From positions 682,001-746,000 of the forward strand of contig JACPIT010000005.1 in NCBI GenBank assembly GCA_016187945.1: a DNA stretch of 64,000 nucleotides, written 5' to 3'. Positions within the stretch are counted from its first letter, which is position 1; each line of letters begins with the position of its first letter. Position numbers and translations under genes: made by a program. Below are positions 29,428 to 51,980 of this stretch, one piece after another. This DNA comes from Opitutia bacterium. GTDB lineage: Bacteria > Verrucomicrobiota > Verrucomicrobiia > Opitutales > Opitutaceae. Below the pieces are notes generated by a model, which was not told where the DNA came from, did not search any database, and saw nothing but the letters and a program-made list of their open reading frames with translations.

Positions 29428-29465
29428 ACTTTAGAACCGTGGCGCAATTTTATCCCGTAACGGAC

Positions 29466-29897
29466 TTAATTTCGGAAGCTACCTATCTTCGTCGTGACTT
29501 TCGGAGGCAAAATTCCATCGCACCCCATAACTGGATTAGCGCTGAATCCCCATGTCTCCACAAGGAACCAACGCAATAGATCCGTGCGCTTAGTTTTGCG
29601 CGAAGGCACCAGTCGCGGATCACCACGTCCGGGAGACATCAGTATAAGCAAAAGAAGTTGTGCAGCGGAAAACCGGTGTCCTGCGAACCACCGTTCACGC
29701 TCGGTCATTTCAGGCCACTTTCCTGTCTTGATCCATTCAAGGCAGAGCCTGTCGATATTGGTTCGCATGCGTTTTTCAATTCTACGCATGTTCGCCGTGG
29801 CGTCCGATTGAGAAGCACCGAATTCGGGCAACGGCCCTAATTCGAGGGGTTGTCGGGCTTCGCGGAAAAAATTAAACCAGTCTGTCCAGTTCTTCAT
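29466..29897 (-). CDS. Hypothetical protein downstream of Druantia
   Basis: 143-aa protein, rich in Trp and Arg (MKNWTDWFNFFREARQ at the start, RWFLVETWGF near the end), not recognised. The ATG at 29897 avoids overlap with the AbiEii gene; a longer frame would overlap it. It is convergent with druE (38 bp apart) and runs in the same direction as, and just downstream of, the AbiE operon, so it could be co-transcribed with it. Confidence 0.5.
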   Translation of the reverse strand: MKNWTDWFNFFREARQPLELGPLPEFGASQSDATANMRRIEKRMRTNIDRLCLEWIKTGKWPEMTERERWFAGHRFSAAQLLLLILMSPGRGDPRLVPSRKTKRTDLLRWFLVETWGFSANPVMGCDGILPPKVTTKIGSFRN

Positions 29898-29916
29898 ATG
29901 AAAATGCCACCAGGAC

Positions 29917-30831
29917 TCATTCAGATGGCAGCCAGCCTTTCGGGGGCGTCCACCGTTCATTGAATTCAGTAGCATTGACGGCTGCCTCCATCACAGGCCA
30001 CGCGAAAATGCGAATGGCGGCCAATGTTGCGGTCATTTCAACGGGCGCGAGGGCATTGCGGCGGATGAAGACCGCCCAAGTCGCGGCTTTCAGTGCAGCG
30101 AACTCCGGGGTCAGCGCGACAGGCACCGTCGCCGGCAATGGCATCTCGCGCCGGGCGAATGTCCGGGTGATGGCGGCCTTCAGCAGTTCGCCTTCAAACG
30201 GGAATTTCCGGCTGAGGAACCAGATGTCGAAAAAGTCCTTCATCCGCGTGTTCGCCTCGCCCAAGCGAACGCTCGCTTCGAGTTTTTCGGCCACGACGGT
30301 GTAGATCGGATACGCGCGCAGGTGCGGGGCGGGAAAATCCAGCAGCGCGGGGAATTCAACTTCGTCCGGCTCGGGTGTGACGACATCACCAAACCCGATG
30401 TCCACCTGAACCCGAATCCGGGCATTTTCCAACCGTGCTTCCAGCGTAATGCGCGTGCCAGGATATGCGGCTTCTTCGCGAATCGGCGCCGCCGCCACAC
30501 TCTCGGGCAAGAAGGTGAGGCCGTCCGGCTCAATTTCGAGCCGACACAGCTCCGTGAAGATCGTCTTCAACGTCTCGTCATCATGCGGGCCGGAGCCGAG
30601 AAGGTCCACGTCACGGGTCGGCCGATGGGTTCCGTCCGCCCAGATCGCGAATAGCATCGCGCCTTTGAGCAGGAAATTCTCCGCGTGGGACGAGCGACTG
30701 AGGCGGTAGAGCAGCCGCTCAATGCCGTAACGCACCAGCACGAGGTCAAAGGGCTCTTTGCGGCGCTCGCTCAAGGTGAGCAGCCGTTGCCGGACGGACG
30801 CCGGCAGATTCCGCTTCGGTTCGGGCTTCAT
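29917..30831 (-). CDS. abiEii: AbiEii-family nucleotidyltransferase toxin (left copy)
   Basis: 304-aa toxin of the type IV AbiE toxin-antitoxin family. It carries the nucleotidyltransferase signature KGAMLFAIW followed by RPTRDVDLLG (residues about 55-80), with the Asp pair needed for catalysis. The later conserved segment VVAEKLEASVRLG ... RMKDFFDIWFL is near 185-210. AbiEii transfers nucleotides to cellular RNA targets and blocks growth, which can abort phage infection or stabilise mobile DNA. It overlaps the antitoxin gene by 4 bp. Confidence 0.88.
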   Translation of the reverse strand: MKPEPKRNLPASVRQRLLTLSERRKEPFDLVLVRYGIERLLYRLSRSSHAENFLLKGAMLFAIWADGTHRPTRDVDLLGSGPHDDETLKTIFTELCRLEIEPDGLTFLPESVAAAPIREEAAYPGTRITLEARLENARIRVQVDIGFGDVVTPEPDEVEFPALLDFPAPHLRAYPIYTVVAEKLEASVRLGEANTRMKDFFDIWFLSRKFPFEGELLKAAITRTFARREMPLPATVPVALTPEFAALKAATWAVFIRRNALAPVEMTATLAAIRIFAWPVMEAAVNATEFNERWTPPKGWLPSE

Positions 30832-31430
30832 GTCAGGCTTTCGAAATAGGGACGCATCACCTTGGCCACACGGTCAACCCGCGCATAGTGTTCCAGGTCT
30901 TTCATCGTGGCGCGGCGCGCACGCCACGTTTCGCGCAGGGCTTCGAGCGCCACATCGAGGCCGATCTTGTGACGGAATTTGAAACAGTCCGCCACGGTCT
31001 TGGCGGGGTTGTAAACCCGCAGGGGCACGCCCTCAACCGTATGGGTTTCGACGCCCTCATTCAGAGCGGGGCCGGAGAGGCGGACGATTCGCAGGCCAAC
31101 GCGGCGCGCTCGTGGACTCCAACTCTTGTGGCCGAGGGCCAGCCAGACCTCATGCGGATTCTGTGTCGTCAGGCGATGGTAGTTGAGAGCCGAGAGCAGG
31201 CAGACGATGCCGTTGGGAATCTGTTTGCCGACTTCGGCCAGCGTGTGGTTTTCGGTGATGTCCGCACCGGGCGGACGATAAAGCCCGCGACCGGCGCGTT
31301 CCAGCAGCCCGGCTTGCACTGCTTCCCGCAGATGAACACGGTTGAACCCTTGGGCGGTCAGGTCGCGTGAGCGCAGGAGGGTGGTGCCGTGAAAGGCTTC
31401 TTTGAGGCGCTTTTGGGTGGTCGCGGTCAT
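30828..31430 (-). CDS. abiEi: AbiEi-family antitoxin (left copy)
   Basis: 200-aa protein. An N-terminal winged-helix segment (LLRSRDLTAQGFNRVHLREA, then GLLERAGRGLYRPP) is followed by an AbiEi C-terminal region (VYNPAKTVADCFKFRHKIG). The ATG at 31430 has a good upstream GAGG; an in-frame ATG at 31454 lies inside the probable operator, so the internal start is preferred. AbiEi represses its own promoter by binding inverted repeats, and one is present (31438-31465). Confidence 0.85.
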   Translation of the reverse strand: MTATTQKRLKEAFHGTTLLRSRDLTAQGFNRVHLREAVQAGLLERAGRGLYRPPGADITENHTLAEVGKQIPNGIVCLLSALNYHRLTTQNPHEVWLALGHKSWSPRARRVGLRIVRLSGPALNEGVETHTVEGVPLRVYNPAKTVADCFKFRHKIGLDVALEALRETWRARRATMKDLEHYARVDRVAKVMRPYFESLT

Positions 31431-31437
31431 AACAGAA

Positions 31438-31465
31438 CCTCGGCATTTATTCATATTCTCCGAGG
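31438..31465. promoter_or_regulatory. Inverted repeat upstream of the left abiEi, probable operator
   Basis: CCTCGG (31438-31443) and CCGAGG (31460-31465) flank an AT-rich centre containing a TATGAATAAAT-like -10 region on the minus strand. The layout fits autorepression by AbiEi. Confidence 0.55.
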
Positions 31466-31748
31466 TCTTGTAAATCCCATTCGCCCCTGCCTCTCGACTT
31501 GCCGCAAGGCTTGTCCGGTGGATTGGCGTCGTATCTAGCTTACGAGCGGTCAGTTCCGATGTTCGGCCTAGAACCCGTTCTATGCTCTTCGGAATTGCTG
31601 GTGAAGGGGCTCTTTTGCGGGGTGCGCTGGGCTTGGTGGGTGTCGCCGGAGCTCCGCGCGCCGTTCCCTGCGGCGCTTTGCCACGGCGCGCGCGGCCCCG
31701 AACGCCGCCAGCGCCTAACTGGGGTCGAGTCCGGCCCCAGCCCCCGGT
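31466..31748. other. Non-coding stretch between the AbiE and DUF3102-type operons
   Basis: 283 bp that start AT-rich and become GC-rich toward 31740. No gene, tRNA or clear terminator was seen on either strand. Confidence 0.35.
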
Positions 31749-32519
31749 TTAGCCGACAGCTCGCGCGGCGGTGCGAACGCGAGGGCGGCCGGCGCGTTCG
31801 TCGCGGCGGATGCCGTGACGTTTGCAGAAGCGGCGGAAATCGAGCGAACTGATCCGCAGACCGAGTGTGGCGAGATGCGCCCGCACTTCGCGGGTGCGGT
31901 AGGCTTCGCGGGGATACCGCAGCATGTAAACCAAGGCGTGCAGCTTCCACCAATCAGCATAGCCGAAAGCGGCGCGCAATCGGCGCGGATCGAGTCCGGC
32001 GAGCAATTCGACGGCGTGGCCGAGTTCGGCGAGTTGGCGGGTTTCACCCGAGCGGATCGCTGCGTCCAATAAATCGGCCCCAGCTTGGAGGAGCTTGGGC
32101 GATGCCTTGGCCGCCTCGCCGGCTTTGCGCCAGTCACGGGCGAGGAGAAAGACGTTCAGGCCGAGCGTGCGCGCCTCGTAGCGTCGCACCAGCACCTCCA
32201 TTTCCTCCCATGTAAGCCCACCAAACGGGCGCGCCGCCTGCGCGGGCAACTGTGCTTTCATCCGGCGTTTTTCCTCAAGCCACCCGTCGAGTTCGCCCGC
32301 CAGTTCGGCGAAGCCGTTGGACATGGCCTCGCCGTTGAGGTCGCCACGCTCCACGAGGGCGAGGAAGTTCGCGCGGGTGTCGGCATCCTGCCCGAAATCT
32401 TCCATCAGCCATGTCAGCAGATCGGGAAACTGCCGGCACATGCTCGCCAGCAGCCGCAGGAAGGCGCGGCTGCGGCGTTCCGAGGTCCGGACGGACGACG
32501 CTAAGGCGACGGCAGTCAT
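31749..32519 (-). CDS. Hypothetical protein, third gene of the DUF3102-type operon
   Basis: 256-aa mostly helical protein rich in Arg and Leu (FGGLTWEEMEVLVRRYEA, then GETRQLAELGHAVELL). The C-terminal third (FRRFCKRHGIRRDERAGRPR) is basic and looks like DNA-binding helices. The ATG at 32519 overlaps the previous stop (ATGA). Function unknown; it is part of a three-gene run with two other small basic proteins and may belong to element maintenance. Confidence 0.6.
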   Translation of the reverse strand: MTAVALASSVRTSERRSRAFLRLLASMCRQFPDLLTWLMEDFGQDADTRANFLALVERGDLNGEAMSNGFAELAGELDGWLEEKRRMKAQLPAQAARPFGGLTWEEMEVLVRRYEARTLGLNVFLLARDWRKAGEAAKASPKLLQAGADLLDAAIRSGETRQLAELGHAVELLAGLDPRRLRAAFGYADWWKLHALVYMLRYPREAYRTREVRAHLATLGLRISSLDFRRFCKRHGIRRDERAGRPRVRTAARAVG

Positions 32520-33073
32520 GACTTGTGAGAACGCACCGGGCCGGAAAAGTTCGCCGCCGGAGGGGCAGGCTCGAACCATAGGCGGAGCTTTTCATACAGG
32601 AGGCGCAGGTCTCGCCGGTAGGCTTCGCGCTGTTCCTCGTCGGTCTGCCCGGGCCGGCGTTTGAGTGTGCGGACGAGCCGGTTGGCGAGAACGACATGCG
32701 CCGGGAGGGTATGCCGCAGCCGGCGCTTGCCCGGTGTTTTCGGCTCGGTGGCGATGCCGAGCCGGGCATACGCCTGTCGCAGGCTCATGCCCTGTAAAAA
32801 CGCCGCGTCGGTCACGCAGTGAGCGAGCCGGATGTAACGCTGGGCGGTCCGGGCGGTGCCGCGAAAGTTGGCTTTCAGCCAGAGGAGCCAGGCACCCGGC
32901 CCCATGTCGCGAAACACCCGTTTTCTTTCCTCAACGAGCAGGTGTCCGGCGTGCCAGGCGGCGACGAGCGCCCGGTGTAGCGCTTCGCGCGAAGCGATCG
33001 CGCACCGCTTGGCCTCTTCATGGAGGCGGTTGATTTCCGCCACGACGGGCGGCGTGGACGGGGCCGGGTTCAT
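32516..33073 (-). CDS. DUF3102-like protein
   Basis: 185-aa helical protein. The segment EINRLHEEAKRCAIASREAL, followed by AWHAGHLLVEERKRV, GPGAWLLWLKANFRGT and ARTAQRYIRLA (about residues 12-85), fits the DUF3102 pattern seen in plasmid and phage proteins. It probably binds DNA or acts in element copy or maintenance; not established. It overlaps both neighbours by 4 bp. Confidence 0.65.
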   Translation of the reverse strand: MNPAPSTPPVVAEINRLHEEAKRCAIASREALHRALVAAWHAGHLLVEERKRVFRDMGPGAWLLWLKANFRGTARTAQRYIRLAHCVTDAAFLQGMSLRQAYARLGIATEPKTPGKRRLRHTLPAHVVLANRLVRTLKRRPGQTDEEQREAYRRDLRLLYEKLRLWFEPAPPAANFSGPVRSHKS

Positions 33074-33351
33074 GACGCCATCCCTGTGGTTTCGCGGAAG
33101 CTGTCCGCAAGTTGATGCACCGCCTGTTTCGTGCGACCGGCCACGTGGCCGATTTCCTCCAGCGTCGCCTCGTTGATCAGATCGGGCCGCACGCAGTAGA
33201 GCGCGACCGTTGCACGCACGCCGCGCTCGTCGAGCGACGCGGCTTCCGCCATCCAGACCAAGAGCCGGCAGACCACTTCCAGGGCGAGGAAGCGCGCTTC
33301 CTGCTTGGGATCGACCGGCTCCGCGAAGAACGAATCATGGTTGGTTTTCAT
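33070..33351 (-). CDS. Small hypothetical HTH-like protein
   Basis: 93-aa protein, first gene of the three-gene operon. The C-terminal segment DLINEATLEEIGHVAGRTKQAVHQLADSF has the look of a helix-turn-helix (residues about 57-85). Unrecognised otherwise. It is coupled to the DUF3102-like gene by a 4-bp overlap. Confidence 0.55.
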   Translation of the reverse strand: MKTNHDSFFAEPVDPKQEARFLALEVVCRLLVWMAEAASLDERGVRATVALYCVRPDLINEATLEEIGHVAGRTKQAVHQLADSFRETTGMAS

Positions 33352-33423
33352 TGTGGGATTGAGTTCGCTCCCACGATACGCCGCGCCCGCGATTCCTAAT
33401 AGATACAGCGTGCGCTCTCCGTT

Positions 33424-33474
33424 CTGATCCTATTTCGCACTCGTTCTGCCTGCGTGCGACACGGCGTGTGTCGC
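33424..33474. repeat. Copy of the CTGATCCTATTTCG / GCGACAC-hairpin module
   Basis: CTGATCCTATTTCG (33424-33437) is followed 18 bp later by the hairpin GCGACAC-GGCGT-GTGTCGC (33456-33474). The same 14-mer (inverted, 11813-11826) and nearly the same hairpin (11483-11503) bracket the non-coding block beside the left relaxase gene. Confidence 0.6.
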
Positions 33475-33483
33475 TTCGCCTGA

Positions 33484-33521
33484 AAACGAAAACACCGCGC
33501 TGGACAAAACCAGCGCGGTGT
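33484..33521 (-). terminator. Strong rho-independent terminator of the excisionase-like gene
   Basis: A perfect 12-bp stem, ACACCGCGCTGG (33492-33503) and CCAGCGCGGTGT (33510-33521), has a 6-nt loop. Read on the minus strand, it is followed by a T-rich tract (TTTTCGTTTTC). It lies 23 bp downstream of the stop of the gene at 33544. Confidence 0.88.
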
Positions 33522-33543
33522 CAGGATTTGCCACGGTGCGGAC

Positions 33544-33771
33544 TCAGCCGCGCGCCGGCACTTTCAGCCGGGTGCGGATGTGGGTCGCGACCTCGGAGGC
33601 GTCATAATAGACGAAATGACCGACGCGGTGATGCGGGATGCGCCGAAGCTTGGTCCAATTCCGCAGGGTGGCGATGGAGGGCTCTTTGTTTTTGGGAAAA
33701 ATCCCGCTGGCGCGCAGGCCGATGATGTCCGTGAGCTGGCTTTCGGTGGAGGGAGAGATGTGCGTTTCCAT
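33544..33771 (-). CDS. Excisionase-like HTH protein
   Basis: 75-aa protein with a MerR/excisionase-type winged helix: ASGIFPKNKEPSIATLRNW, then HRVGHFVYYDASEVATHI. The ATG at 33771 is chosen because upstream in-frame codons are antisense to another gene and not protein-like. Small proteins of this type direct excision by a tyrosine recombinase; one is encoded 1.4 kb away on the same strand. A strong terminator follows. Confidence 0.68.
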   Translation of the reverse strand: METHISPSTESQLTDIIGLRASGIFPKNKEPSIATLRNWTKLRRIPHHRVGHFVYYDASEVATHIRTRLKVPARG

Positions 33772-33846
33772 ACCCCTGACCGCCGGGTCAATTGCGGCGC
33801 CCCTGCACGCTCGCCATCCCGGCCCGGCGGCGCTAGGCTTCCCCGC

Positions 33847-34530
33847 ATGTCCATTCCCGAATACAAGGGACGGTCGGCGGACGACATCGCCGCGGGGAAG
33901 TTCGTCAACGACTCCGCCTGGCAGGTGTATACGAGCCTTTCGTGGTGCGACTATGCCGAGCGCCGCAACGCGCCCACAGCACTGCACTACGCTGGCCTTC
34001 ATTTGCGGACTGGCGTCGAGCAACTCTGGTTCGAGGTCCTGTTCGCAGCCTCGGGTGGTTCGATCACCGCAAACGAATACGAGCAGGCGCTGCGCAGCAC
34101 CACCAAGCTATATAAGATGATCGACGCCGCCGAGCCGCACTACATTAAGTTTGCCGAGTTCGTCCAATTGCTGGCCGCGGTGGACAGCCGCGCGCATCCG
34201 CCGACCGTAGTGTGGGACATCGCCCGCCTGAAACGCATCCACGGCGGTTGCGGCGAACTGCTGCTGCATTTTCAAGGCGTGCCAGAGAAGGGCTATCGCA
34301 GCGATGCGTGGAACGAGAGCCGGCTGAAATTCCTGCGCGAAGCGGCCGCGTGGATGTGGAATGAAATGACCACGCGTGGCAGCCTCGCGGTTTATTCCCC
34401 CGAGGGCCTCAAGAAGCCCGAGGTGTTTTCATTGTGGGAACGCTACCGCGACGGCACGAACTCCGCAGAGGATGTGCGGCTCGGCCTCCGCATCATCCAG
34501 CCCATCGTGCGGGGCCGCCCGCCCGCTTAG
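33847..34530 (+). CDS. Hypothetical protein
   Basis: 227-aa mostly helical soluble protein (ALHYAGLHLRTGVEQLWFEV, then SRLKFLREAAAWMWNEM). No family recognised and no catalytic motif. The ATG at 33847 gives a protein-like start; an upstream frame is antisense to the excisionase-like gene. It is divergent from that gene with a 75-bp gap and convergent with the gene at 34543. It may be cargo. Confidence 0.6.
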   Translation: MSIPEYKGRSADDIAAGKFVNDSAWQVYTSLSWCDYAERRNAPTALHYAGLHLRTGVEQLWFEVLFAASGGSITANEYEQALRSTTKLYKMIDAAEPHYIKFAEFVQLLAAVDSRAHPPTVVWDIARLKRIHGGCGELLLHFQGVPEKGYRSDAWNESRLKFLREAAAWMWNEMTTRGSLAVYSPEGLKKPEVFSLWERYRDGTNSAEDVRLGLRIIQPIVRGRPPA

Positions 34531-34542
34531 TCCTCGGCGCGC

Positions 34543-35076
34543 CTAATACGGCTTCTCGCTGCACTGGCAGCCGGGCGGGAGAGGAAAAATGTCCCCGAGC
34601 GAGTGCGAGATGGAACGGCGCAGGATTTCCGGATTGCGGATGAAGCGCGTGAGCATGAAGCGCGTGAATTTCCACGGGTTGATCGCGATGATCTTCCGCC
34701 CGTTGTTCACGCAGAGCGAGGGCCGCTCCCCAAATTCCGCCCCGATCATCCATTTGTAGCGGTAGGTTTTTCCGCCGAGCTGGTAGTCTTTGATCTTTTT
34801 TTTCGGCTGCCCTTGGTGCTGCATCCCGTGGCGGAAAAGAAACCAGAAGTGGCGAAACAACTTCAGGTCGCAGTCGAAATCCCACGCCGCCTTTTTCAGG
34901 AAGGGCTCGGTCTTGTTGTGCTGGGTAATGGTGTTCGACTTGATCCGATAATATCGCTCGCAAAGGAAGAAACCCATCGAGAGCGCGACGAACGCCCCGT
35001 CGCCGCGCGGAATCTGTTTCAGCCGGTTGTAGGGCGACACATACCACCGAATGAACTTCGTCCGGTCTGTGAGCAT
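34543..35076 (-). CDS. Hypothetical basic protein
   Basis: 177-aa basic, aromatic-rich protein (RWYVSPYNRLKQIPRG, then FRHFWFLFRHGMQHQGQPKK). No recognised family and no membrane segment. Its base use is more AT-rich than the neighbours' (LKKAAWDFDCDLKLF region), which suggests a separate origin. It is convergent with 33847-34530 (12 bp apart) and lies downstream of the recombinase gene. Confidence 0.6.
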   Translation of the reverse strand: MLTDRTKFIRWYVSPYNRLKQIPRGDGAFVALSMGFFLCERYYRIKSNTITQHNKTEPFLKKAAWDFDCDLKLFRHFWFLFRHGMQHQGQPKKKIKDYQLGGKTYRYKWMIGAEFGERPSLCVNNGRKIIAINPWKFTRFMLTRFIRNPEILRRSISHSLGDIFPLPPGCQCSEKPY

Positions 35077-35096
35077 GGCGCATCATACCCGATGCG

Positions 35097-35133
35097 GGCG
35101 GCCAGCGGCAGTGAAAAAATGCCGCCGACCGCC
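35097..35133. repeat. Imperfect hairpin downstream of the left recombinase gene
   Basis: GGCGG-CCA-GCGGCA (35097-35110) pairs with TGCCGC-CGA-CCGCC (35120-35133) around an A-rich loop. There is no T tract, so it is a weak terminator candidate at best. Confidence 0.35.
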
Positions 35134-35146
35134 TGACTTCTGAGCC

Positions 35147-36340
35147 TCACGCCGCGTGCGCGAGGGACGGGACCGCGCCGAACAGCGCTTTTCGCGGGCG
35201 AATCGCGAAGAACGCCTCGGCCTCTTTCGTCGTTTTCAAATCGAGGTAGTGCTTGCGGATGATGCTTTCGGAGTTGCCCGCCTGAATCGCCGCCTCGCCG
35301 ATGGAGCGGAATTTGGCCACGAACATCGAAATGAACGTGTGCCGCAGCACGTCGTGCGTGAGGTTGAAATTCTTGGCGAAGCGGTCGCGCCGCTTCTTGA
35401 AATTCCCGAGGATGATCGGCCCTTTGTCCAACGGGTAGGCTTTGAGCCACGCGGCGAGATTCGGCTGAATCGTCACCTTGCGTGGCTCGCGCACCTTCGA
35501 GACTTCGGCCGAGACGTGAATCACGCCCTCGTCGAGTTTCACCGCGTCCGGCTTGAGCTTGGTGATCTCGCCGTAAGGCACACCCGGACGGATGCCGGCG
35601 AAAAGGCACAGCGCGAAATACGGCACCCAACGGCCTCCGTCGTAAGTCTCCATGTGCTCCATGAGCTTCGCCGCCTGCTCCGCCGTGAACGTTTGCGCCA
35701 CGCCGCGCTTCCGGCGAATGCGGTAGTGCGGCACTTTCAGAATCGGATTCTCCGCGATCCAGCCCCGCTGGAACGAGTATTTGAAAAATGTGGAGAGGAT
35801 GCCGCGCCGGTTGTTGTGGGTCTTCATTCCGGGCCGGTCTTTCTCCAAAAATTCCGTCAGGGCCGTCGCGGTGAGTTCAGCGACCGCTTTCTTGGGAAAT
35901 GCCGTCACCAACCGTTTCAGGTCTTCCCGAATCCGGTTCATCTGCGGCGGCGAAAGCTGGTCCTGGGCGAACTCGTGTTCCTTGGCCGTGACGTATTCGG
36001 CCACGGCGTCGGCCAGCGGCTTTTGCTTTTCCGGCTCGCGGTAATTCGCGAGTGCGAAGTCCAGATAGAACGACAGCGAGCGCGGCAGGTTCGCCAGTCG
36101 CCGAAAGGCCGCCTCGGCTTCGTGGAGCTGATCCTCGTTTAAGCGGGTGACGGCGGCACGCGTGCCGGTGTCCCGCTGAAGCCAACTGACCTCTTGAACC
36201 TGACGCTCTGCCTCCGCCTCCGTGCGGGTCTGAAAATTCTTGCGGAAGCGTTGACCGTCGATGCGAGCGTAGAGCTGAAAAACGATTTTCCCGGAGGGAT
36301 TCGTGAACTCTGAGATGACGAATGGAGTGACTGTCTTCAT
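35147..36340 (-). CDS. int: Tyrosine recombinase (integrase), left element
   Basis: 397-aa phage-type integrase. The C-terminal catalytic domain has the first Arg in CLFAGIRPG (about residue 250) and the LTHDVLRHTF box (His and second Arg, about 330). GNSESIIRKHYLDL carries the nucleophilic Tyr; the residue usually His in box II is Asn here. The N-terminal arm-binding (FQLYARIDGQRFRKNFQTR) and core-binding domains are visible. It probably mediates integration at the tRNA-derived site 70 bp away. A perfect inverted repeat ends 2 bp before its ATG. Confidence 0.88.
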   Translation of the reverse strand: MKTVTPFVISEFTNPSGKIVFQLYARIDGQRFRKNFQTRTEAEAERQVQEVSWLQRDTGTRAAVTRLNEDQLHEAEAAFRRLANLPRSLSFYLDFALANYREPEKQKPLADAVAEYVTAKEHEFAQDQLSPPQMNRIREDLKRLVTAFPKKAVAELTATALTEFLEKDRPGMKTHNNRRGILSTFFKYSFQRGWIAENPILKVPHYRIRRKRGVAQTFTAEQAAKLMEHMETYDGGRWVPYFALCLFAGIRPGVPYGEITKLKPDAVKLDEGVIHVSAEVSKVREPRKVTIQPNLAAWLKAYPLDKGPIILGNFKKRRDRFAKNFNLTHDVLRHTFISMFVAKFRSIGEAAIQAGNSESIIRKHYLDLKTTKEAEAFFAIRPRKALFGAVPSLAHAA

Positions 36341-36341
36341 G

Positions 36342-36372
36342 ACCGATTTGGCCGGTCAACGGCCAAATCGGT
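36342..36372. promoter_or_regulatory. 13-bp perfect inverted repeat abutting the left integrase start
   Basis: ACCGATTTGGCCG (36342-36354) and CGGCCAAATCGGT (36360-36372) are separated by 5 bp and end directly before the integrase ATG (36338-36340). In the mRNA this would fold over the ribosome-binding region; as DNA it could be an operator or recombinase/excisionase site. No separate Shine-Dalgarno sequence is visible outside the repeat. Confidence 0.7.
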
Positions 36373-36411
36373 TATCGAAAAATCTAACCTCCTATTGCTA
36401 AGAAGTTAAGT

Positions 36412-36441
36412 TGGCGTCCCCACGGGGATTCGAACCCCGGT
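36412..36441 (-). other. att: Attachment-site core: 3' end of a tRNA gene (tRNA-Glu-like)
   Basis: On the minus strand the sequence reads CCGGGGTTCGAATCCCCG, then TGGGGACG CCA: a complete T-arm (36423-36439), the 3' acceptor strand, discriminator G and encoded CCA. The acceptor strand TGGGGAC plus G and CCA is what tRNA-Glu genes typically end with. No matching 5' half (a GTCCCCA start) or anticodon arm lies upstream, so it is a fragment and not a tRNA gene. It sits between two divergent integrases and is best explained as an attachment site left by integration into a tRNA 3' end. Confidence 0.72.
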
Positions 36442-36462
36442 CTCCACCGATGCTGTTTTCAT

Positions 36463-36545
36463 GGAATGACTTACGTTAGTAGGAAATGACTTATGAAATC
36501 GGCGTCACTCACAAAACTCGGCGTCATTCTTACTGTCATTCTTAC
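36463..36545. repeat. Short repeats between the att core and the right integrase
   Basis: AATGACTTA occurs at 36465-36473 and 36485-36493. GTCATTCTTAC occurs twice in tandem at 36523-36533 and 36535-36545 (12-bp period), and its complement again contains AATGAC. TCGGCGTCA occurs at 36499-36507 and 36518-36526. Such clustered short repeats beside an att core are typical arm-type recombinase sites, and the last copy touches the integrase start. Confidence 0.55.
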
Positions 36546-36547
36546 CT

Positions 36548-37705
36548 ATGGCCTCCCTTTGGAAACACCCGAAAAGCCAGTTCTGGACCGCGTGCTTCAC
36601 TGACGACAACGGGCGTCAGCTCAAGCGCTCCACGAAACTTACCGACCGCAACAAGGCCACGCTGATGGCCCAGAAATTCGAGGCGGCCTACCGCATGAAG
36701 CTCACCGAGGCGCAGGCCCGCAAGGTCGTCTCCGACATCTTCGAGCAGATCCACGGCGAGCAGCTCTACCATGCCACGGTCCGAAAATTCCTCACGGATT
36801 GGATGACCAACAAGAAAAGCGAAACCAGTCCGGGCACCCACAAGCGGTATCAGAACGCCGTGGACAAGCTCCTCGCTTTTCTTGGCGACCGGGCCGACCG
36901 GGACATCGCCTACGTCCACAAACGCGATCTCGCGGCACTGCGGGACAAGACCGCCGCAGAATTGTCGGTTTCGACGGCTAACACGGACTTGAAGATTCTG
37001 CGCGTAGCGTTCCACCAGGCCGTCATCGACGGCCTGCGGCTCGACAATCCCGGTGCGGCCGTGCGCACGCTCGAGGAACACAAGTCCTCCGACGCCCCCG
37101 AGCGTCGCCCGTTTACCGAGAAGGAACTAAAGACGCTGTTCGCCGTGGCTGAGGGCGAATGGGAAGGCCTCCTCCTCGGCGGTCTCTACACCGGCCAGCG
37201 CCTGGGCGACCTGGCGTCGTTGACCGGACGCCGGATCGATCTCGGAGAAGAGTTGCTCACGTTCCGTTCGCAGAAGACGGGACGTGATATGGTCATTCCC
37301 ATCGCGGCCCCGTTCTTGGCTTACCTGAAAAAGAATATGCCGCGTGACCCCGATGCCCCTCTCTTTCCGAAAGCCCACGAAGAACGAAAGGAAGCCGATG
37401 GTGAATCGCGCCGGCTTTCAGCGCAATTTCACGCGCTCCTCGTGAAGGCAAAGCTCGTCGATGCCCGGCCCAAAGACAAGAACAGTGGGCGCGGGCATTC
37501 GGTGAAGCGCACCGTCAGCGAGCTAACTTTCCACAGCCTGCGGCACAATACCACGTCCTGGCTCAAAAAAGCCGGTGTGCCGGAGTCCGTGGTTCGCGAC
37601 ATCATCGGTCACGAATCGGAACTCGTCAGCCGCAACTATACTCATGTGGACGATGCGACCAAACGGAAGGCCATCCGCAACCTGCCCAATATCACCGCAG
37701 CATGA
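36548..37705 (+). CDS. int: Tyrosine recombinase (integrase), right element
   Basis: 385-aa integrase with all catalytic residues in recognisable boxes: Arg in YTGQRLGDLASL (about 215-226), HSLRHNTTSWL (about 325), IGHES (His, about 351) and NYTHVDD (Tyr nucleophile, about 360). N-terminal SAM-like core-binding domain LSVSTANTDLKILRVAFHQA. It is clearly different from the left recombinase. It is the first gene of the right element and is transcribed away from the att core. Confidence 0.92.
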   Translation: MASLWKHPKSQFWTACFTDDNGRQLKRSTKLTDRNKATLMAQKFEAAYRMKLTEAQARKVVSDIFEQIHGEQLYHATVRKFLTDWMTNKKSETSPGTHKRYQNAVDKLLAFLGDRADRDIAYVHKRDLAALRDKTAAELSVSTANTDLKILRVAFHQAVIDGLRLDNPGAAVRTLEEHKSSDAPERRPFTEKELKTLFAVAEGEWEGLLLGGLYTGQRLGDLASLTGRRIDLGEELLTFRSQKTGRDMVIPIAAPFLAYLKKNMPRDPDAPLFPKAHEERKEADGESRRLSAQFHALLVKAKLVDARPKDKNSGRGHSVKRTVSELTFHSLRHNTTSWLKKAGVPESVVRDIIGHESELVSRNYTHVDDATKRKAIRNLPNITAA

Positions 37706-37785
37706 GGATGTGACGCATACCGAGGCAGCGAGCGCATTGTCGCTTCACGGCCTCCGGCATCGCACCACCTTGCGTCCCGGGCGTT

Positions 37786-39399
37786 CTAGGGTTCCGGCGT
37801 CGGCCGTGTGGGATACGGCCACTCACCCTTCGCTCGATAGTCGAGCATGAACTCGGCGAGCGAGACGCAGGGAAAATCGGCGATGAATTCGGCGGCGATA
37901 CAGGGATAGAGGGTCACCATCGCTGGAGCTACCCGCAAACATACACCGCGGTGTCCCAGCGCCGATGAAATCTCGTGTGCGCGGCTGCGCACCCAATCGA
38001 TCTTTTTTCGAAACTTGGCCGCGTAGGAGTTATTGCCGGAAACGAAAGTTGAAACGTCGTCACGCCAGTATTTCGCCTCTAGTCCTGTGTTCACCATTTT
38101 TGCTTCCAGCACAACCAACAGCCCCTTCCCGGAATCAACACCAAGAAGGTCGATTTCGCCGACTTCGGGTGGAATTTGGACAGCACCAGACCCGTTTCCG
38201 ATCTGGTCCTTGGCTCGCCCTCCTTGAATCCCAAGTTTACGAGCGTTCTGTGCAACGACATCCTCGAACCAAACGCTTGCTTGCCTGGAGAGTCGCTCGA
38301 GGGCGGCTTTCACGCGAGGATCACTCCATTCCATAGGTAGACGCTTGTAGCAGACTCCGTGAACGAGATGGGTCATGCTCTCCATGGCCATCTGCCGAGA
38401 GAATGCTATGTGCGGGCCGGTTTCGTGTGGAAACGCGAGAAACCCGCGACGAAACGCACGATGCTCCTGCTTTGGGTTCCAAACGACGCGGCCTTCTGCG
38501 CGCATGTTTTCCGGAAAGACGGTGAACCCGGACAAGGCGCGCTCCACTGCCGCAAGTGGCGCGCCTTGGCTGATGAGCTGATCTACGATGCTTTGCCGAT
38601 GGATAAACAGCGTCGGGAAGCCACCCGGCGCCGGCTGACAGCTATTGATGATCAACCGCAATAAATAGATGAAGTGCCCGTAGCTCCATCCAAATGCGGA
38701 TTCGAATGCCGGATCGAGTTCGGGCTGATGCCTGACGGTGTGGTAATCAAATTGGTGTCCGCTGATGAACTCCGCACGATGTTGCCGATCTCGCGCCAGC
38801 CGCTGCTGCATTCTCAAGTCATAGCCTTCATGCTTGCCGGTGACGTGAACTTCATAGTCCACCGCATTACCGGGCTTATGAATCGTCGCTTCGCTGTCAT
38901 TTGGAAAGACGCCATGCACCCGATTGCTCATTTCCGCCATGTCAACAAGCGTCTCGGCCGCAAGCAGGGCCTGATCCATTGCTCGCCAGGATTGCTCCTT
39001 TGTGGCCTTCGATGGTGCCGTCGGCTCATGAAGTGCGATAAGCTCGGCGATGAACTTCATCGCCCGGCGATAATCGCCTTCAATACGAAGCCAATTCTCC
39101 CGCTGCTGGGGATCACGAATCTGAGCGCCATGTAGAATCGTTGCCGATTCTTCGTATTGCGTGAGAATAAACTCTAGAGAATCGCGTGAGGCCAACACCG
39201 GAATCGCTGCCATTAACTGCTCTGAGAAATAGGCGAATTGATGCTGAAGAACTGAATTGGCGATACCTGCATCTTTGTAACGACCGACCCGAAACTTCAA
39301 AAGCAGATGGGCGCGCGCCTCCGTGCGCATTCGATGTGCAGTTTCGAGCGACCACCGAAATATTCGGGCCGGGCCATATTGCTCTACACGCATCGGCAC
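37786..39399 (-). CDS. Large hypothetical protein with PD-(D/E)XK-like nuclease motif
   Basis: 537-aa soluble protein. The first 350 residues are mainly helical and not recognised. Near residues 428-446 the motif GEIDLLGVDSGKGLLVVLEAK has an acidic residue and Asp before a beta hairpin and an ExK after it, which is the active-site pattern of PD-(D/E)XK nucleases. It stands alone next to the right integrase, a typical slot for defence cargo. It could be a restriction-like nuclease with its own sensor region, or a repair enzyme. No methylase partner is adjacent. Start: ATG at 39399; an upstream in-frame codon was not needed. Confidence 0.6.
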   Translation of the reverse strand: MPMRVEQYGPARIFRWSLETAHRMRTEARAHLLLKFRVGRYKDAGIANSVLQHQFAYFSEQLMAAIPVLASRDSLEFILTQYEESATILHGAQIRDPQQRENWLRIEGDYRRAMKFIAELIALHEPTAPSKATKEQSWRAMDQALLAAETLVDMAEMSNRVHGVFPNDSEATIHKPGNAVDYEVHVTGKHEGYDLRMQQRLARDRQHRAEFISGHQFDYHTVRHQPELDPAFESAFGWSYGHFIYLLRLIINSCQPAPGGFPTLFIHRQSIVDQLISQGAPLAAVERALSGFTVFPENMRAEGRVVWNPKQEHRAFRRGFLAFPHETGPHIAFSRQMAMESMTHLVHGVCYKRLPMEWSDPRVKAALERLSRQASVWFEDVVAQNARKLGIQGGRAKDQIGNGSGAVQIPPEVGEIDLLGVDSGKGLLVVLEAKMVNTGLEAKYWRDDVSTFVSGNNSYAAKFRKKIDWVRSRAHEISSALGHRGVCLRVAPAMVTLYPCIAAEFIADFPCVSLAEFMLDYRAKGEWPYPTRPTPEP

Positions 39400-39459
39400 A
39401 TGCCCAGATGCGCACCGCAGAAGGTCAAGCTCCCGATGAACGGGCGCAAAGCGTCTTCT

Positions 39460-40320
39460 TTATGGGTGTTCAAACATGGCTTTCATGTATTCACGCAACG
39501 CGACCACTACCTCGGCAAATACCCCAGGCAGGCCGGTGAGGCTGTTCCGTCGAATGAACGCAGCCCACTGCGTTTGCTTGGTCGCATTGTTGGCGAACGC
39601 GTCGCTCAACGGGTCCGGCCACACGGGCAGCGGCGTCTGCCGGCGGGCGAAGGTCGCCTCGATTGCGCGGCGGAGCGTGGGGCCATCGAGCTGGAAACGT
39701 CGCGTGAGAAACCACACGTCGTGAAAGTCCTTCATCCGCGTGTTGGCGATGCCCAGCTTCGCCATCGCCTCGAATTTCTCCGCCACGACCGTGTAAACGG
39801 GATAGGTGCGCACCTGCGGCGCCGGGAAATCCAGCAGCGTGGGAAAACTCGCCGTCTCCGGCGCGGGCGTGACCGCGTCGCCGACACCGACATCGATTTG
39901 GACAGGCACCTCCGCCGGTCCGAGTTTGGCCAGGATCCGGACGCGGACACCACCATAGGTGTTGTCCTCCCGTATATCCTCGGCGCGAACGGAAGCGGGA
40001 TCGAACACCAGGCCGTCATCGACCACCGGCAGCGTCACCACCTCCTTAAACAGTTTTTGGAGGTCCTCTTTCTCCGAGGGGCCGAAGCCCAGCAAATCGA
40101 GATCCCGCGTCGGGCGATGCGTCTTCTCGTCCCAGACGACGAACAGCATCGCTCCCTTCAGCAAGAAGCGGTCGGCGTAGGCTGACTGACTCAGTCGGAA
40201 CAGCAGCCGCTCGATCCCGTAGCGCAGAAGCAGCAGGTTGAAATCGTCACGGCGTCGGGCGGCTTCGTTCTGCAATCGCGCCTTCACCGATGCCGCCAGA
40301 TTCTTCGGTGCGGCACTCAT
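39460..40320 (-). CDS. abiEii: AbiEii-family nucleotidyltransferase toxin (right copy)
   Basis: 286-aa toxin with the same signature as the left copy: KGAMLFVVW, RPTRDLDLLG (about residues 54-78), and VVAEKFEAMAKLG followed by RMKDFHDVWFL near 190-215. The start at 40320 overlaps the antitoxin stop by 4 bp; a longer upstream frame lies within abiEi and is discarded. The sequence is clearly diverged from the left copy, so the two were probably acquired with their own elements. Confidence 0.87.
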   Translation of the reverse strand: MSAAPKNLAASVKARLQNEAARRRDDFNLLLLRYGIERLLFRLSQSAYADRFLLKGAMLFVVWDEKTHRPTRDLDLLGFGPSEKEDLQKLFKEVVTLPVVDDGLVFDPASVRAEDIREDNTYGGVRVRILAKLGPAEVPVQIDVGVGDAVTPAPETASFPTLLDFPAPQVRTYPVYTVVAEKFEAMAKLGIANTRMKDFHDVWFLTRRFQLDGPTLRRAIEATFARRQTPLPVWPDPLSDAFANNATKQTQWAAFIRRNSLTGLPGVFAEVVVALREYMKAMFEHP

Positions 40321-40913
40321 GTCAGCATCTCCAGATACGGCTGCATGATTCGGCTGACGCGGCACACCGCCGCTGCCGCCGCGAGATCCTTCATGGAGAA
40401 TTTCTTTCCCCGCCAGCCTTCCCGCAGCGCCTCGACCGCAACATCGAGACCATATTTCTGCCGATACTTGAAGCAGTCGGCCACCGTCTTCGCCGGCGAG
40501 TAAACCCGCACGGTTCCCCCGGTGAGGGTGTGCTCTTCGATCCCGAAGGTGTAGGCCGAACCGGAAAACTGGGCGAAGCGCAGCGGCAGGCTCACGCCAC
40601 GCGGACGATTGCTGCCGCGCGGCAGCGCGAGCCACACCTGATGCGGCGATTGCGTCCCGATCCCGTGGAATTGCAGCGCAGAGACCAGGCAGACGACACC
40701 ACGCGGCACCCGCTTGGCCGCTTCCACCAGAGATTGGTTTTGGTCGCCGTCGAAGCCCGCCGAGGCGTAGAGCCCACGTCCAAGCTGGCGGACTTGCTCC
40801 TGGCTCACCAGACGACGCAGATACTCGCGAGGGTAACCGGCCACGACCATGTCGCGGGCACGGAACACCCCCAGACGGCTGGCGTGGTCGCCGGCAGCCT
40901 TGAGGAGAGTCAT
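40317..40913 (-). CDS. abiEi: AbiEi-family antitoxin (right copy)
   Basis: 198-aa antitoxin: winged-helix N-terminus (VFRARDMVVAGYPREYLRRL, GRGLYASAGF) and AbiEi region (VYSPAKTVADCFKYRQKYG). The ATG at 40913 is selected because it follows the operator-like repeat directly and matches the left homologue; a 98-codon upstream extension has no family likeness. Confidence 0.85.
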   Translation of the reverse strand: MTLLKAAGDHASRLGVFRARDMVVAGYPREYLRRLVSQEQVRQLGRGLYASAGFDGDQNQSLVEAAKRVPRGVVCLVSALQFHGIGTQSPHQVWLALPRGSNRPRGVSLPLRFAQFSGSAYTFGIEEHTLTGGTVRVYSPAKTVADCFKYRQKYGLDVAVEALREGWRGKKFSMKDLAAAAAVCRVSRIMQPYLEMLT

Positions 40914-40916
40914 GGT

Positions 40917-40962
40917 GTTACGTTCTATTTTCACTTCCTCATTTATGGTGTGAATACGTAAC
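40917..40962. promoter_or_regulatory. Inverted repeat upstream of the right abiEi, probable operator
   Basis: GTTACGT (40917-40923) and ACGTAAC (40956-40962) form perfect 7-bp arms around an AT-rich 32-bp centre, just upstream of the abiEi start at 40913. The sequence differs from the left operator, which suggests that the two antitoxins do not cross-regulate. Confidence 0.58.
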
Positions 40963-41032
40963 AATGACTCAAGGCGAAAACCCCGCCATGAGGATACGAG
41001 GGTTCTCAGGGATGGCTTGTCCATAAACGACT

Positions 41033-41296
41033 TCAGGCCAATTCGTTGAGGTAACCCATCAGGCTGTCGTAGCTGATCAGCCGGATGCCCCGGAGCGCAC
41101 CCCGCTTGCGAAGGACGACGCTTTTGACGGGAGGAGTCCCGGCGTTGGCCGGGCCGGGTATCGTCAGCTCGTTGAGGGTGCTCCGGGACAGTCCCGTGAA
41201 CCGGCACCGGCTACCGGGAGCCGGCAGACGGAGCCATTCAGGCTTCAGCGATTCGCCAGCCATGGCCGCGGAGGGAGAAGGAAGGGTCGCGTTCAT
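41033..41296 (-). CDS. Small HTH/excisionase-like DNA-binding protein
   Basis: 87-aa protein with a probable helix-turn-helix (RCRFTGLSRSTLNELTIPG) followed by a wing (KSVVLRKRGALRGIRLISY) and a recognition tail (DSLMGYLNELA). The pattern fits small excisionase or MerR-like proteins of integrative elements. It may serve the right integrase. Not tightly linked to neighbours. Confidence 0.6.
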   Translation of the reverse strand: MNATLPSPSAAMAGESLKPEWLRLPAPGSRCRFTGLSRSTLNELTIPGPANAGTPPVKSVVLRKRGALRGIRLISYDSLMGYLNELA

Positions 41297-41328
41297 GATT
41301 CTTCGTTTCGGTTGAGATTGAGTTGGGT

Positions 41329-41712
41329 TCAGACGCTCACCGTCACGGTGGCCTCATGACGGAGTTCCATGCGCATGGCCGCGCGCGCCTGCACCTCGCC
41401 CGCGAGTTGTTCGATCATCGCGTCATGAAACCGGTTCGCGCGGTGGTGCACGGGAAAACCGAAGTCGGTCTTCTCTGTGCGCCACTCCACCGATGCGACC
41501 ATGCGCTGATCACGGTGATCGAGGAGGCGAACGCCGCCGCCCTCGAAAGCTGGTGCCTGATTCAGGAACGCCTCGACCGCCTCCGGTGCTGAGTCGGTTC
41601 GATAGCCAGGAAGGAAAAGCCCGGCGCGATTCTGCCGATAGATTTGATACCGTGCCACCGTCGCTACCGCGTCGGGGCCCGTGATGGATGATGTCGTGTG
41701 GTTCGTTTTCAT
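41329..41712 (-). CDS. Hypothetical protein
   Basis: 127-aa protein (start MKTNHTTSSI at 41712) with an alpha/beta look: ARYQIYRQNRAGLFLPGY, then RMVASVEWRT. No recognised family. It lies 33 bp upstream of the small HTH gene on the same strand and is probably co-transcribed with it. Confidence 0.5.
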   Translation of the reverse strand: MKTNHTTSSITGPDAVATVARYQIYRQNRAGLFLPGYRTDSAPEAVEAFLNQAPAFEGGGVRLLDHRDQRMVASVEWRTEKTDFGFPVHHRANRFHDAMIEQLAGEVQARAAMRMELRHEATVTVSV

Positions 41713-42368
41713 GGATGAGTTGGGTTTCGCTGTATCCATCTCTGCGCTTCCCGGCGACATCCTCAATCGAGCGGCCCTGCCGAAATCGCGGGGCCAATCC
41801 TACACCGGATTCGGTAGGCCCAGAGCATCGGGCGAAGCACGCCGATCCATCACCGTGGAGTCATGCGACTCCCCACAAACCGAGCGGTGCCTGCGGACCC
41901 AAAGCGGCCGGCACCAGCCGACCGTCAGGCGAGGTCACTCCGGACTTCAGCTCCGCGAGTCGCGCTGGTCGTGTGGCTCGTCCTCGTCGGCGTAAGTCAT
42001 CACCGCCGGCAGGGTCGTGAAATGTCGTCGCCCCGGACCGGGCGAGACCGTTGCGGAATTTCTCAGGCATCACTCTCCCACGTTCTGATCCGGTGGCGGC
42101 ATGGAGCACCCCGGCCGCGCTGCATGCGTTCATGGCTGCGAGCGGTCCGCGTTCTTCCGGGCAACGCCGCCAAAGCGGCACGTTCCTTTTTCCGGGATCG
42201 TTTTCGCTCTCTCTGGCGGCCCCTCCGGCCGGCCCGCCGCTGCGCGGACGGGGAACGTTTGGTTCCCCCTTGAAAGGAATCCTCCCAACCGCCCCCTCGT
42301 CCCGGCCGGCACCCCCGCCTTGGGGCGAGAGAGCAACTCCGCTCCCTCAAAATCAAAAAAGGAACTAT
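41713..42368. other. 656-bp region without a supported gene
   Basis: Open frames exist on both strands, but none has a plausible protein composition. Contents: an inverted repeat GGAGTC/GACTCC (41857-41872), the 13-mer TTCGGTAGGCCCA at 41810-41822 (identical at 55865-55877), GC-rich self-complementary sequence to about 42330, and a ribosome-binding site AGGAAC just before the ATG at 42369. It probably carries the promoter and leader of the 42369 gene. Confidence 0.45.
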
Positions 42369-42665
42369 ATGCCCTCCAAGACCGCTCAACCCGCCTCGTC
42401 TGCCAAGCCCACCACCAGCGCCAAGCTGCCGGTGAAAACCTTCCGCCTCGGCCGCATCAAAGCCGCCGTGTGGGAGAACGAAGCCGATCAGAAGAAATTC
42501 TACAACGTGACCTTCGCCCGGACCTACGTGGACGACGCCAAGAACTATCACGACACCGACAGCTTCGGCCGTGATGACCTCCCGCTCGTCGCCAAGCTGG
42601 CCGACCAGGCCCACACGTTCATCTTCGACCGCCTCGCGGAACTGAAGTCCGAACAGAGCGAGTGA
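42369..42665 (+). CDS. Small hypothetical protein
   Basis: 98-aa protein: Ala/Thr/Lys-rich disordered start (about 24 residues), then a compact region FRLGRIKAAVWENEADQKKF and YVDDAKNYHDTDSFGRDDL, ending in LADQAHTFIFDRL. It resembles small element-borne proteins of unknown function. A GGA-rich ribosome-binding site (AAAAAAGGAAC) precedes the ATG, and a strong terminator follows the stop, so it is probably well expressed as a single gene. Confidence 0.7.
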   Translation: MPSKTAQPASSAKPTTSAKLPVKTFRLGRIKAAVWENEADQKKFYNVTFARTYVDDAKNYHDTDSFGRDDLPLVAKLADQAHTFIFDRLAELKSEQSE

Positions 42666-42679
42666 CTCCTCGCCACCAC

Positions 42680-42709
42680 GGCGGCCGGTAACCCCGGCCG
42701 CCTTTTTTG
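42680..42709 (+). terminator. Rho-independent terminator
   Basis: Perfect 9-bp stem GGCGGCCGG (42680-42688) and CCGGCCGCC (42694-42702) with loop TAACC, followed by TTTTTTG. It is 15 bp after the stop of the 98-aa gene. Confidence 0.9.
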
Positions 42710-43002
42710 TGTCCTCTGGCGCCGCTCCCGACCACCGAACCGACGCTCGCTTCGCTCGAATCTTCTAGCGACTGCCAGCCGCTGGTTTCGCCATTTTACA
42801 CCCGGTCAAGGTAGTCCGCTGCGCGGCTCCACCTCGCGGGATCACTCCGCTTCCCCCTCGTTGGTCCTGCTACGCAGGACACGGCCTCGGCGCTCCGTCC
42901 ACCGCTTTGACTTTCGGGTGTGGGGCGAAAATCGCCAATCGGCAGTAGGCGATAAGGTCACGAAACGTGACGCACGCCCCACGGGCCGAACGGCATGAAA
43001 CC
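42710..43002. other. GC-rich palindromic leader before the DUF6573-like gene
   Basis: No gene is seen. It contains the hairpin GTCCTGC-TAC-GCAGGAC (42864-42880) and longer imperfect inverted similarity between the segments near 42788-42812 (ACACCCGGTCAAGG) and 42905-42930 (CTTTGACTTTCGGGTGT). It could be a folded leader, a regulatory region or a transfer-related site. Confidence 0.4.
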
Positions 43003-43371
43003 ATGTCCTGTGAAAATCCGTTCGGGGAAACGATCTACTCCTACTCCCGCGCCCAAGCCATCGAGGACGGCGTCCTCGTTGACCTGAGCCAGGCCGACTC
43101 CATCCGCCAACACTGGAAATACCCCTTCGCCTGCACGTCGGCGGTGTGGGCCATCATCGAGGATGCGTTGCAACAGCCCGGCCAGGATGTCTCCGGCATC
43201 TGCCACGACATCTCCACCATGGCCAAGCTCGCCATCCGCAGCACGACGGCCCCGGAGCTGGTCCGGTTCAGCGTCATCATCACCGGGCGGACGCATGCCC
43301 TGAAACTGCACATCGGCCCGGGCGACACCGCGGCCCCGGTCCTCACTCTCATGCTTCCTTACGAGGACTGA
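43003..43371 (+). CDS. DUF6573-like small protein
   Basis: 122-aa protein with the typical opening NPFGETIYSYSRAQAIEDGVLVDLS, a family often found on plasmids and conjugative elements (its name is given from memory of the motif). The rest is alpha/beta (ISTMAKLAIRSTT, HALKLHIGPGD). A GTG at 42967 would add 12 residues; the ATG at 43003 begins right at the conserved motif and is preferred. A terminator follows. Confidence 0.72.
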   Translation: MSCENPFGETIYSYSRAQAIEDGVLVDLSQADSIRQHWKYPFACTSAVWAIIEDALQQPGQDVSGICHDISTMAKLAIRSTTAPELVRFSVIITGRTHALKLHIGPGDTAAPVLTLMLPYED

Positions 43372-43374
43372 ACG

Positions 43375-43396
43375 AAGGGGGTTCGGCCCCTTTTTT
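43375..43396 (+). terminator. Rho-independent terminator
   Basis: AAGGGG (43375-43380), loop GTTCGG, CCCCTT (43387-43392), running into TTTTTT. It is 4 bp after the stop of the 122-aa gene and just before the convergent LuxR-type gene. Confidence 0.82.
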
Positions 43397-43410
43397 GCGC
43401 CTTCGCAAGC

Positions 43411-44139: not shown

Positions 44140-44141
44140 GG

Positions 44142-45056: not shown

Positions 45057-45065
45057 GACGCGCTC

Positions 45066-45611: not shown

Positions 45612-45613
45612 AG

Positions 45614-47643: not shown

Positions 47644-47652
47644 GGCGCGTCC

Positions 47653-48318: not shown

Positions 48319-48323
48319 GGCAG

Positions 48324-49708: not shown

Positions 49709-49722
49709 AAGATTTCCAGCGA

Positions 49723-49956: not shown

Positions 49957-49995
49957 AGGACCGTTTTGACCGATTTTTTCCGGGGGTGTTCGCCG

Positions 49996-51976: not shown

Positions 51977-51980
51977 GGCA

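Follow-up and report, generated by a model that had tools for sequence, protein, structure and literature searches.

Two different conjugative-type elements in apparent tandem at the 3′ end of one tRNA-Glu gene, with the two integrase genes diverging from the shared core, in an Opitutaceae bacterium

Tandem accretion of integrated elements is known from Streptococcus agalactiae, where elements with very different integrases occupy a tRNA-Lys gene and share a chimeric attI site (PMC5704250), and the Islander database, with 3919 islands, includes 125 tandems of at least two (PMC4383910). Two Streptococcus integrases with 21% identity both target the rpmG gene, in different orientation and location (PMC4701971). 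As for regulation, int is transcribed from the tRNA promoter in ICEKp1, ICEclc and ICEEc1, and in ICEKp1 and its relatives the co-oriented int is attenuated by leader stem-loops (PMC13023037); negative autoregulation has been measured for IntS of KplE1 and other E. coli integrases (PMC2951348).

The locus described here, in an Opitutaceae bacterium, is an array of a known kind because the available portions of three of these reports (PMC5704250, PMC4383910 and PMC4701971) cover its parts; tandem accretion with divergent integrases is already published, and the array is a well-resolved new example of it. It differs from the S. agalactiae tandem, which in the available text combines an IME with a slightly decayed ICE (PMC5704250), in that relaxase and VirB4 genes are found in both of its elements, in its Verrucomicrobiota-type host and in the occurrence of both orders among its relatives; around the shared core its int genes are placed back to back, the published tandem being compared apart from its int layout. 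Like the Islander tandems, it has a tRNA fragment and an integrase for each island, although that source is a catalogue, compared here apart from integrase layout and regulation (PMC4383910), whereas the rpmG target is a protein-coding gene and the available passage contains no tandem (PMC4701971). Among the papers listed for the Opitutaceae lineage, titles and abstract beginnings contained no recognisable elements of this type, most subscription journals lying outside the search. We consider three points worth carrying forward, namely the back-to-back layout, the finding of it in either order among relatives, and the chance that one integrase gene has been orphaned.

The window, by which we mean the whole stretch of DNA that was analysed (64,000 nucleotides, C9:682001-746000), contains the junction of the two elements, named A and B, and its principal features are as follows.

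36411..36441, minus strand: middle chimeric att core, consisting of the tRNA-Glu 3′ end (36412-36441, 30 bp) and one further matching base
C9:771721-771797 (window 89721-89797, outside), minus strand: intact tRNA-Glu(TTC), 53 kb right of the middle core, with matching 3′ end
1..36410, no strand assigned: in-window part of element A; its left core is beyond the window, at C9:674362 (window -7638)
36442..64000, no strand assigned: in-window part of element B, whose right end, outside, is the intact tRNA-Glu
35147..36340, minus strand: intA, tyrosine recombinase of element A, 397 aa (PHROG integrase, E 1.3e-27; family alignment)
36548..37705, plus strand: intB, tyrosine recombinase of element B, 385 aa (Pfam Phage_integrase, E 3.3e-17; PHROG integrase)

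A preliminary description of this DNA had reported a 30-bp tRNA 3′ end flanked by two divergently transcribed recombinases, and this end is present at 36412-36441: read from base 36441 to base 36412 on the minus strand, it comprises the T-arm, the acceptor strand and the CCA (TGG on the forward strand), and base 36411 adds one match to the flank of the intact tRNA-Glu, for a repeat of 31 bp in total. A search of the whole genome (5.47 Mb, 16 contigs) with a 24-mer of the core, at up to one mismatch, returned three forward copies and no reverse copy, at C9:674363, 718413 and 771722, all in one orientation on a single 1.5-Mb contig. The left core (C9:674362), 44 kb from the middle core, has 25 bp identical to the end of the intact tRNA-Glu, and the middle core (C9:718412) has 31 bp in common with it. 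Within the window, a 28-mer of the core at up to three mismatches had no second copy, nor did one occur in 100 shuffles, and neither ARAGORN nor Rfam found a whole tRNA, as expected since only a tRNA fragment is present.

The resulting order is left flank, core, A, core, B and intact tRNA-Glu, with element A covering 44 kb (C9:674362 to 718411) and element B 53 kb (718412 to 771720). Three cores of the same orientation, the right one belonging to an intact tRNA-Glu, indicate that A and B are tandem occupants of one tRNA gene and that the middle core is chimeric, and we hold it to be very probable that two different conjugative-type integrated elements stand in tandem at the 3′ end of one tRNA-Glu(TTC) gene. 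A tandem array on one target gene had been proposed in the preliminary description, and the proposal is supported by core copies in the same orientation at both outer ends (C9:674362 and C9:771721), by the identity of the right copy as a minus-strand tRNA-Glu(TTC) gene with the same 3′ end, by the presence, to either side of the junction, of one integrase and one set of conjugation genes, and by relatives in which A-type and B-type elements are found separately or in a different order at this tRNA. Of the four ORFs predicted immediately to the left of element A, three have a third-position GC of 0.86-0.93 and the fourth, which may be spurious (309 aa), has 0.70; within elements A and B the values are mostly 0.6-0.8. 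The search for an empty tRNA-Glu with the left flank of element A yielded none: a gene of that flank occurs in 9 of 24 genomes (the window's own included) and adjoins tRNA-Glu only in the window's own.

The two recombinases are clearly different, as had been stated at the outset, their sole BLASTP match covering 10 residues (E 3.1). In Pfam, intA matches Phage_int_M only, under the cut-off of that family. Alignments that kept 28 of 30 B-family and 27 of 30 A-family proteins showed that R218, K243, H329, R332, H355 and Y364 are each conserved in 28/28 members of the B family, and that the A family keeps R251, K282 and R333 in 27/27 and Y365 in 26/27. Where the B family has H329 and H355, the A family has D330 and N356 (26/27 each). 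Histidine (or tryptophan) is usual at these positions in tyrosine recombinases, so the A integrase would count, by its residues, as a somewhat unusual member of the group. The eight relatives of intB that carry names are all from metagenome-assembled genomes labelled Verrucomicrobia/Verrucomicrobiota, Akkermansiaceae, Opitutaceae or Verrucomicrobiaceae. The genome also encodes a second A-type integrase, which shares 59% identity with intA. Located outside the window from C9:1107564 onwards (L168 2564-2648 and following), it lies behind an intact tRNA-Leu(CAG) and is preceded by a similar palindrome. The 7.9-Mb genome G265 has 22 matches to intA at E ≤ 1e-15, at several places on C1, some of them fragments.

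Conjugation and defence genes lie on both sides of the junction.

594..3215, minus strand: VirB4/TraC-type ATPase, element A
5906..7378, minus strand: coupling protein (TraD/VirD4 type), element A
8583..11372, minus strand: TrwC/MobF relaxase-helicase, element A
29917..31454, minus strand: AbiE pair, element A (AbiEii 29917-30831, AbiEi 30828-31454)
39460..41207, minus strand: AbiE pair, element B (AbiEii 39460-40635, AbiEi 40317-41207)
45614..46738, minus strand: VirB10/TrbI, element B
51981..54683, minus strand: VirB4/TraC-type ATPase, element B
57952..60756, minus strand: TrwC/MobF relaxase-helicase, element B
60796..62622, plus strand: coupling protein, element B (weak TrwB match; 36% identical to that of element A)

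The window thus has the two relaxases, two coupling proteins (TraD), two VirB4 genes and two AbiE pairs that had been counted beforehand. Both elements encode a TrwC/MobF relaxase, a coupling protein, a VirB4/TraC-like ATPase, a VirB10 and a ClpX-like AAA protein, and these five proteins are 34-43% identical between A and B; the AbiEii proteins are 56% identical. Matches to mating-pair formation proteins include VirB10 in both elements and a VirB5-like protein and a weak TraK_C match in B, while several genes adjoining the transfer genes, and many transfer genes in all, are without a family match in A and B alike. The best plasmid match of the VirB4 of B, at 29.8%, is from Opitutaceae bacterium TAV5. 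The defence cargo of element A comprises a short pAgo/SIR2 pair, Druantia genes and the AbiE pair, and the part of element B outside the window contains ThiF/DUF6791, OLD-like, HD-CE, P-type ATPase and RND efflux genes. In the first of these clusters (region 12988-16298), a short prokaryotic Argonaute (13928-15229) is followed by a SIR2 protein (15231-16298), and directly upstream of the Argonaute lies a 312-aa protein without a Pfam or PADLOC match. The Druantia cluster (18029-29427) has DruA1, DruB1 (weak, E 2.2e-6), DruC1, DruD1 and DruE1 as its best PADLOC models. Two neighbouring RadC-like JAB proteins are encoded in element A at 16665-17853, and a RadC also lies at the right end of element B (C9:770779-771423). 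An IS110-type transposase (C9:675069-676067; window -6931, outside) is found just within the left end of element A.

A match to the core is present in 115 of 150 genomes of the family, and at least 13 contigs have two or more cores, the orientation being common to all cores in each of the 13 listed. The same A-core-B junction recurs in G331, with an intA 63% and an intB 40% identical to those of the window and the tRNA-Glu 69 kb further on. This bears on the idea that the assembly wrongly joined two unconnected loci through the tRNA repeat that they share, an error that a repeated core and an assembly in 16 contigs might favour; with an independent instance of the junction between integrases this far diverged, and with only three cores in the window's genome, which have a common orientation and lie on a single 1.5-Mb contig, we regard such an artefact as extremely improbable. 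The opposite order, namely tRNA-Glu, A-type element, core and then B, is found in G264, whose intB is 98% identical to that of the window and whose middle core has the right repeats of B on one side and the left end of A on the other; the rule that B is always tRNA-proximal is ruled out by this genome, in which A is proximal and B distal. A relative of B is the sole occupant of tRNA-Glu in G019, which belongs to another genus. It shares 94% DNA identity with the B of the window over 39484-48335 and 48531-62810 (the conjugation region), but identity falls to 73.5% in int and to 87.8% near the right end, and this uneven identity argues that parts have been exchanged.

Single B-type elements are also present in G015 and G073, and in six genomes (G013, G184, G264, G265, G293 and G340) an A-type int lies directly behind an intact tRNA-Glu. 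Two A-type integrases, each adjoining a core, occur in G340, where the second core has one mismatch; three cores each are found in G147 and G184; and in G021, an A-type element lies beyond another element, the middle core being degraded with ten bases left. In G147, 18 kb separate a B-like integrase from the closest core on its left. Elsewhere in that genome, two cores 56 kb apart (G147:C1:3018818 and 3074772) have near-identical flanks on both sides, as if from a B-type tandem duplication, and neither has an integrase directly adjoining. In G019, an additional degraded core about 170 bp past the left core of B (G019:C7:104215) is a trace of an earlier occupant, and in G058 (C1:3995240) the sequence downstream of tRNA-Glu resembles the right end of element B, a genome in which no relative of intB was found at E ≤ 1e-10.

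An alternative interpretation of the window is that the whole 97 kb between the outer cores moves as a single composite and that the middle core is left over from an earlier fusion. The outer cores could recombine, and excision of an entire composite is on record, in the available part of that report, for the S. agalactiae tandem (PMC5704250), but we consider this highly unlikely here because A and B are each equipped with an integrase, a relaxase, a coupling protein and a VirB4 gene of their own, and because close relatives of B are found with no A (G019) or with an A-type element between them and the tRNA (G264). Two separate elements sharing a middle core are the reading that we follow below.

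The position of each int gene relative to the tRNA was surveyed in 30 loci per integrase family, drawn from searches that covered 223 genomes of the order, among them that of the window, and gave an integrase match in 90/223 genomes for the A family and 38/223 for the B family; the loci are those returned by the searches, mainly the best per genome. In the A family, a tRNA/tmRNA 3′-end pattern lay within 250 nt upstream of int in the sense orientation at 21/30 loci and in the antisense orientation at 3/30, whereas in the B family it was sense at 0/30 and antisense at 19/30. Control windows downstream of int gave 2/134 sense and 1/134 antisense for A loci and 0/127 and 0/127 for B loci. The pattern found no tRNA end at 6/30 A loci (L043, L045, L046, L054, L057 and L059) and 11/30 B loci, a count in which L097 of the B family, whose upstream region falls off its contig, is scored as a miss; at L057, ARAGORN reports an intact tRNA-Leu that the pattern missed. 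By ARAGORN, 21 of the 30 A loci have an intact tRNA or tmRNA that ends within 180 nt upstream of int in the same sense, and the genes upstream of A-type int are of the types Glu, Ser, His, Leu, Pro, Asp, Val, Gly and tmRNA. B-type int adjoins the partial tRNA copy and reads into its own element. The intA of the window follows only a tRNA fragment rather than an intact gene. With A distal and B proximal at one tRNA, and the two families laid out differently, the int genes come to lie back to back at the shared core.

Both int genes are directly preceded by repeats, and a further stem-loop lies between the repeats of A and the core.

36342..36372, minus strand: palindrome of 13 bp whose end lies 1 nt ahead of the intA start codon, a strong RNA stem and a candidate inverted arm-type pair
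36376..36409, minus strand: terminator-like stem-loop with a U-run, which would follow the tRNA if A were tRNA-proximal
36525..36545, plus strand: direct pair CATTCTTAC with a 12-bp period, just before intB, candidate arm-type sites

The CATTCTTAC unit is found again as a pair near the tRNA end of element B. Relative to base 36413 and its equivalents, the B-type 7-mers of G000 lie at +114/+126 and -80/-68 and account for four of the seven same-strand copies in 184 kb. In G019 (TTGTCAC), G073 (TTCTTAG) and G147 (TTGTCA), the repeats are at most three bases from the positions in G000, and in G015 (GTCTTAC) they lie at +105/+116 with a single exact copy at -80. The unit thus varies among elements, as these genomes carry different ones, while matching between both ends of the same element in five elements. 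On the A side, the unit of the palindrome is present as a direct pair at the far end of A in G184, G293 and G265, and as one full and one cut-off copy in G264; in G000, the left (far-end) repeat is two bases off the unit at the right end. This agreement between the ends of A was judged by eye from the sequences, apart from any chance comparison.

Across loci, inverted pairs matching at 8/9 or better precede int in 22 of 30 A loci (shuffle null 3.0%) and direct pairs at the same threshold in 22 of 29 B loci (null 2.6%; L097 left out), the null resting on 20 single-base shuffles per locus. A single repeat type common to both families was rejected, as direct pairs reached the threshold of 8/9 in 1/30 A loci (null 2.2%) and inverted pairs did so in 2/29 B loci (null 4.0%). 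Judged by their position, their pairing and their matched change, the repeats are probably arm-type sites of the integrases.

When RNA was folded as read out of the tRNA, a strong stem appeared at the right end of B (z -5.95); at the right end of A (36338-36411), the U-run stem and the 13-bp stem abutting the intA start together gave z -7.09, and the chromosomal left flank gave a stem of z -4.15, values each reached in 0/200 shuffles. From the stems at their right ends, A and B each seem to bring a replacement terminator along with their copy of the tRNA end. A consensus scan of 36200-36700 called no terminator, the stem-loop at 36376-36409 included. An ordinary sigma-70 promoter or a consensus terminator at the junction was likewise discarded as a candidate, with none of either in 36200-36700.

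The drifted left repeats of A, together with the IS110-type transposase at its left end and the many transfer genes without a family match, could also be taken to mean that A and B are decayed, immobile islands with fossil att sites. This is unlikely in our view because neither element shows an interruption in the reading frame of its integrase, relaxase or VirB4 gene, and because the 94% identity of the B conjugation region in another genus and the 98% identity of intB in G264 suggest recent movement.

Each integrase would recombine its own attP with the tRNA 3′ end, restoring the tRNA and leaving a partial copy at the far end, with the crossover presumably falling within the core, and the element that arrived second may have targeted either the intact tRNA end or the fragment. 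Excision of A would join the left and middle cores and excision of B the middle core and the tRNA end, so that the middle core would serve both, with the right arm of A on one side and the left arm of B on the other. The integrases would bind the repeats before their int genes, which could allow autoregulation through repeats abutting int, and in both families these repeats would be compatible with negative autoregulation as in KplE1. The likeness to that system, as far as the available text goes, lies in candidate arm-type sites directly before int and in A-type loci having the shape termed STI there (PMC2951348), and the difference in that B-type int adjoins a partial tRNA copy rather than the intact gene.

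Element A resembles the ICEKp1 type, by the portion of that source available, in an int co-oriented just downstream of the tRNA and in leader stem-loops, and is unlike it in having a terminator-like stem of its own and, in the window, B between the tRNA and intA (PMC13023037). Given this ICEKp1-like layout, insertion of B between the tRNA and A would cut intA off from tRNA-promoter read-through, and it is a possibility that element B cuts intA off from the tRNA promoter on which it depends. A further step, which we put forward tentatively and are inclined to doubt, is that the layout makes accretion asymmetric, such that insertion between the tRNA and A orphans intA and immobilises A whereas a B-type element, which carries the needed parts beside its partial tRNA copy, stays mobile. 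We caution against the notion that an orphaned intA decays fast: among the five intA genes that lie beyond another element, those of G000, G021, G331 and G340 are uninterrupted over their length and that of G293 is a fragment, which leaves rapid decay unsupported (4/5 uninterrupted). If the asymmetry were real, a chimeric att site would be one conjugative element's way to switch off a rival without damage, and the silencing of A would be reversible, A becoming mobile again after B leaves.

The locus offers a naturally replicated test case for unrelated integrated elements that use one attachment site, since within one bacterial family the same tRNA-Glu is found with B alone, with an A-type int directly behind it, and in A-B, B-A and A-A arrangements. 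The mapped cores, candidate arm sites and int layouts make it possible to predict which junctions would excise and which integrase would be silent, and the locus lets the stacking of defence cargo, such as the short Argonaute with SIR2, Druantia and AbiE, be followed in this family.
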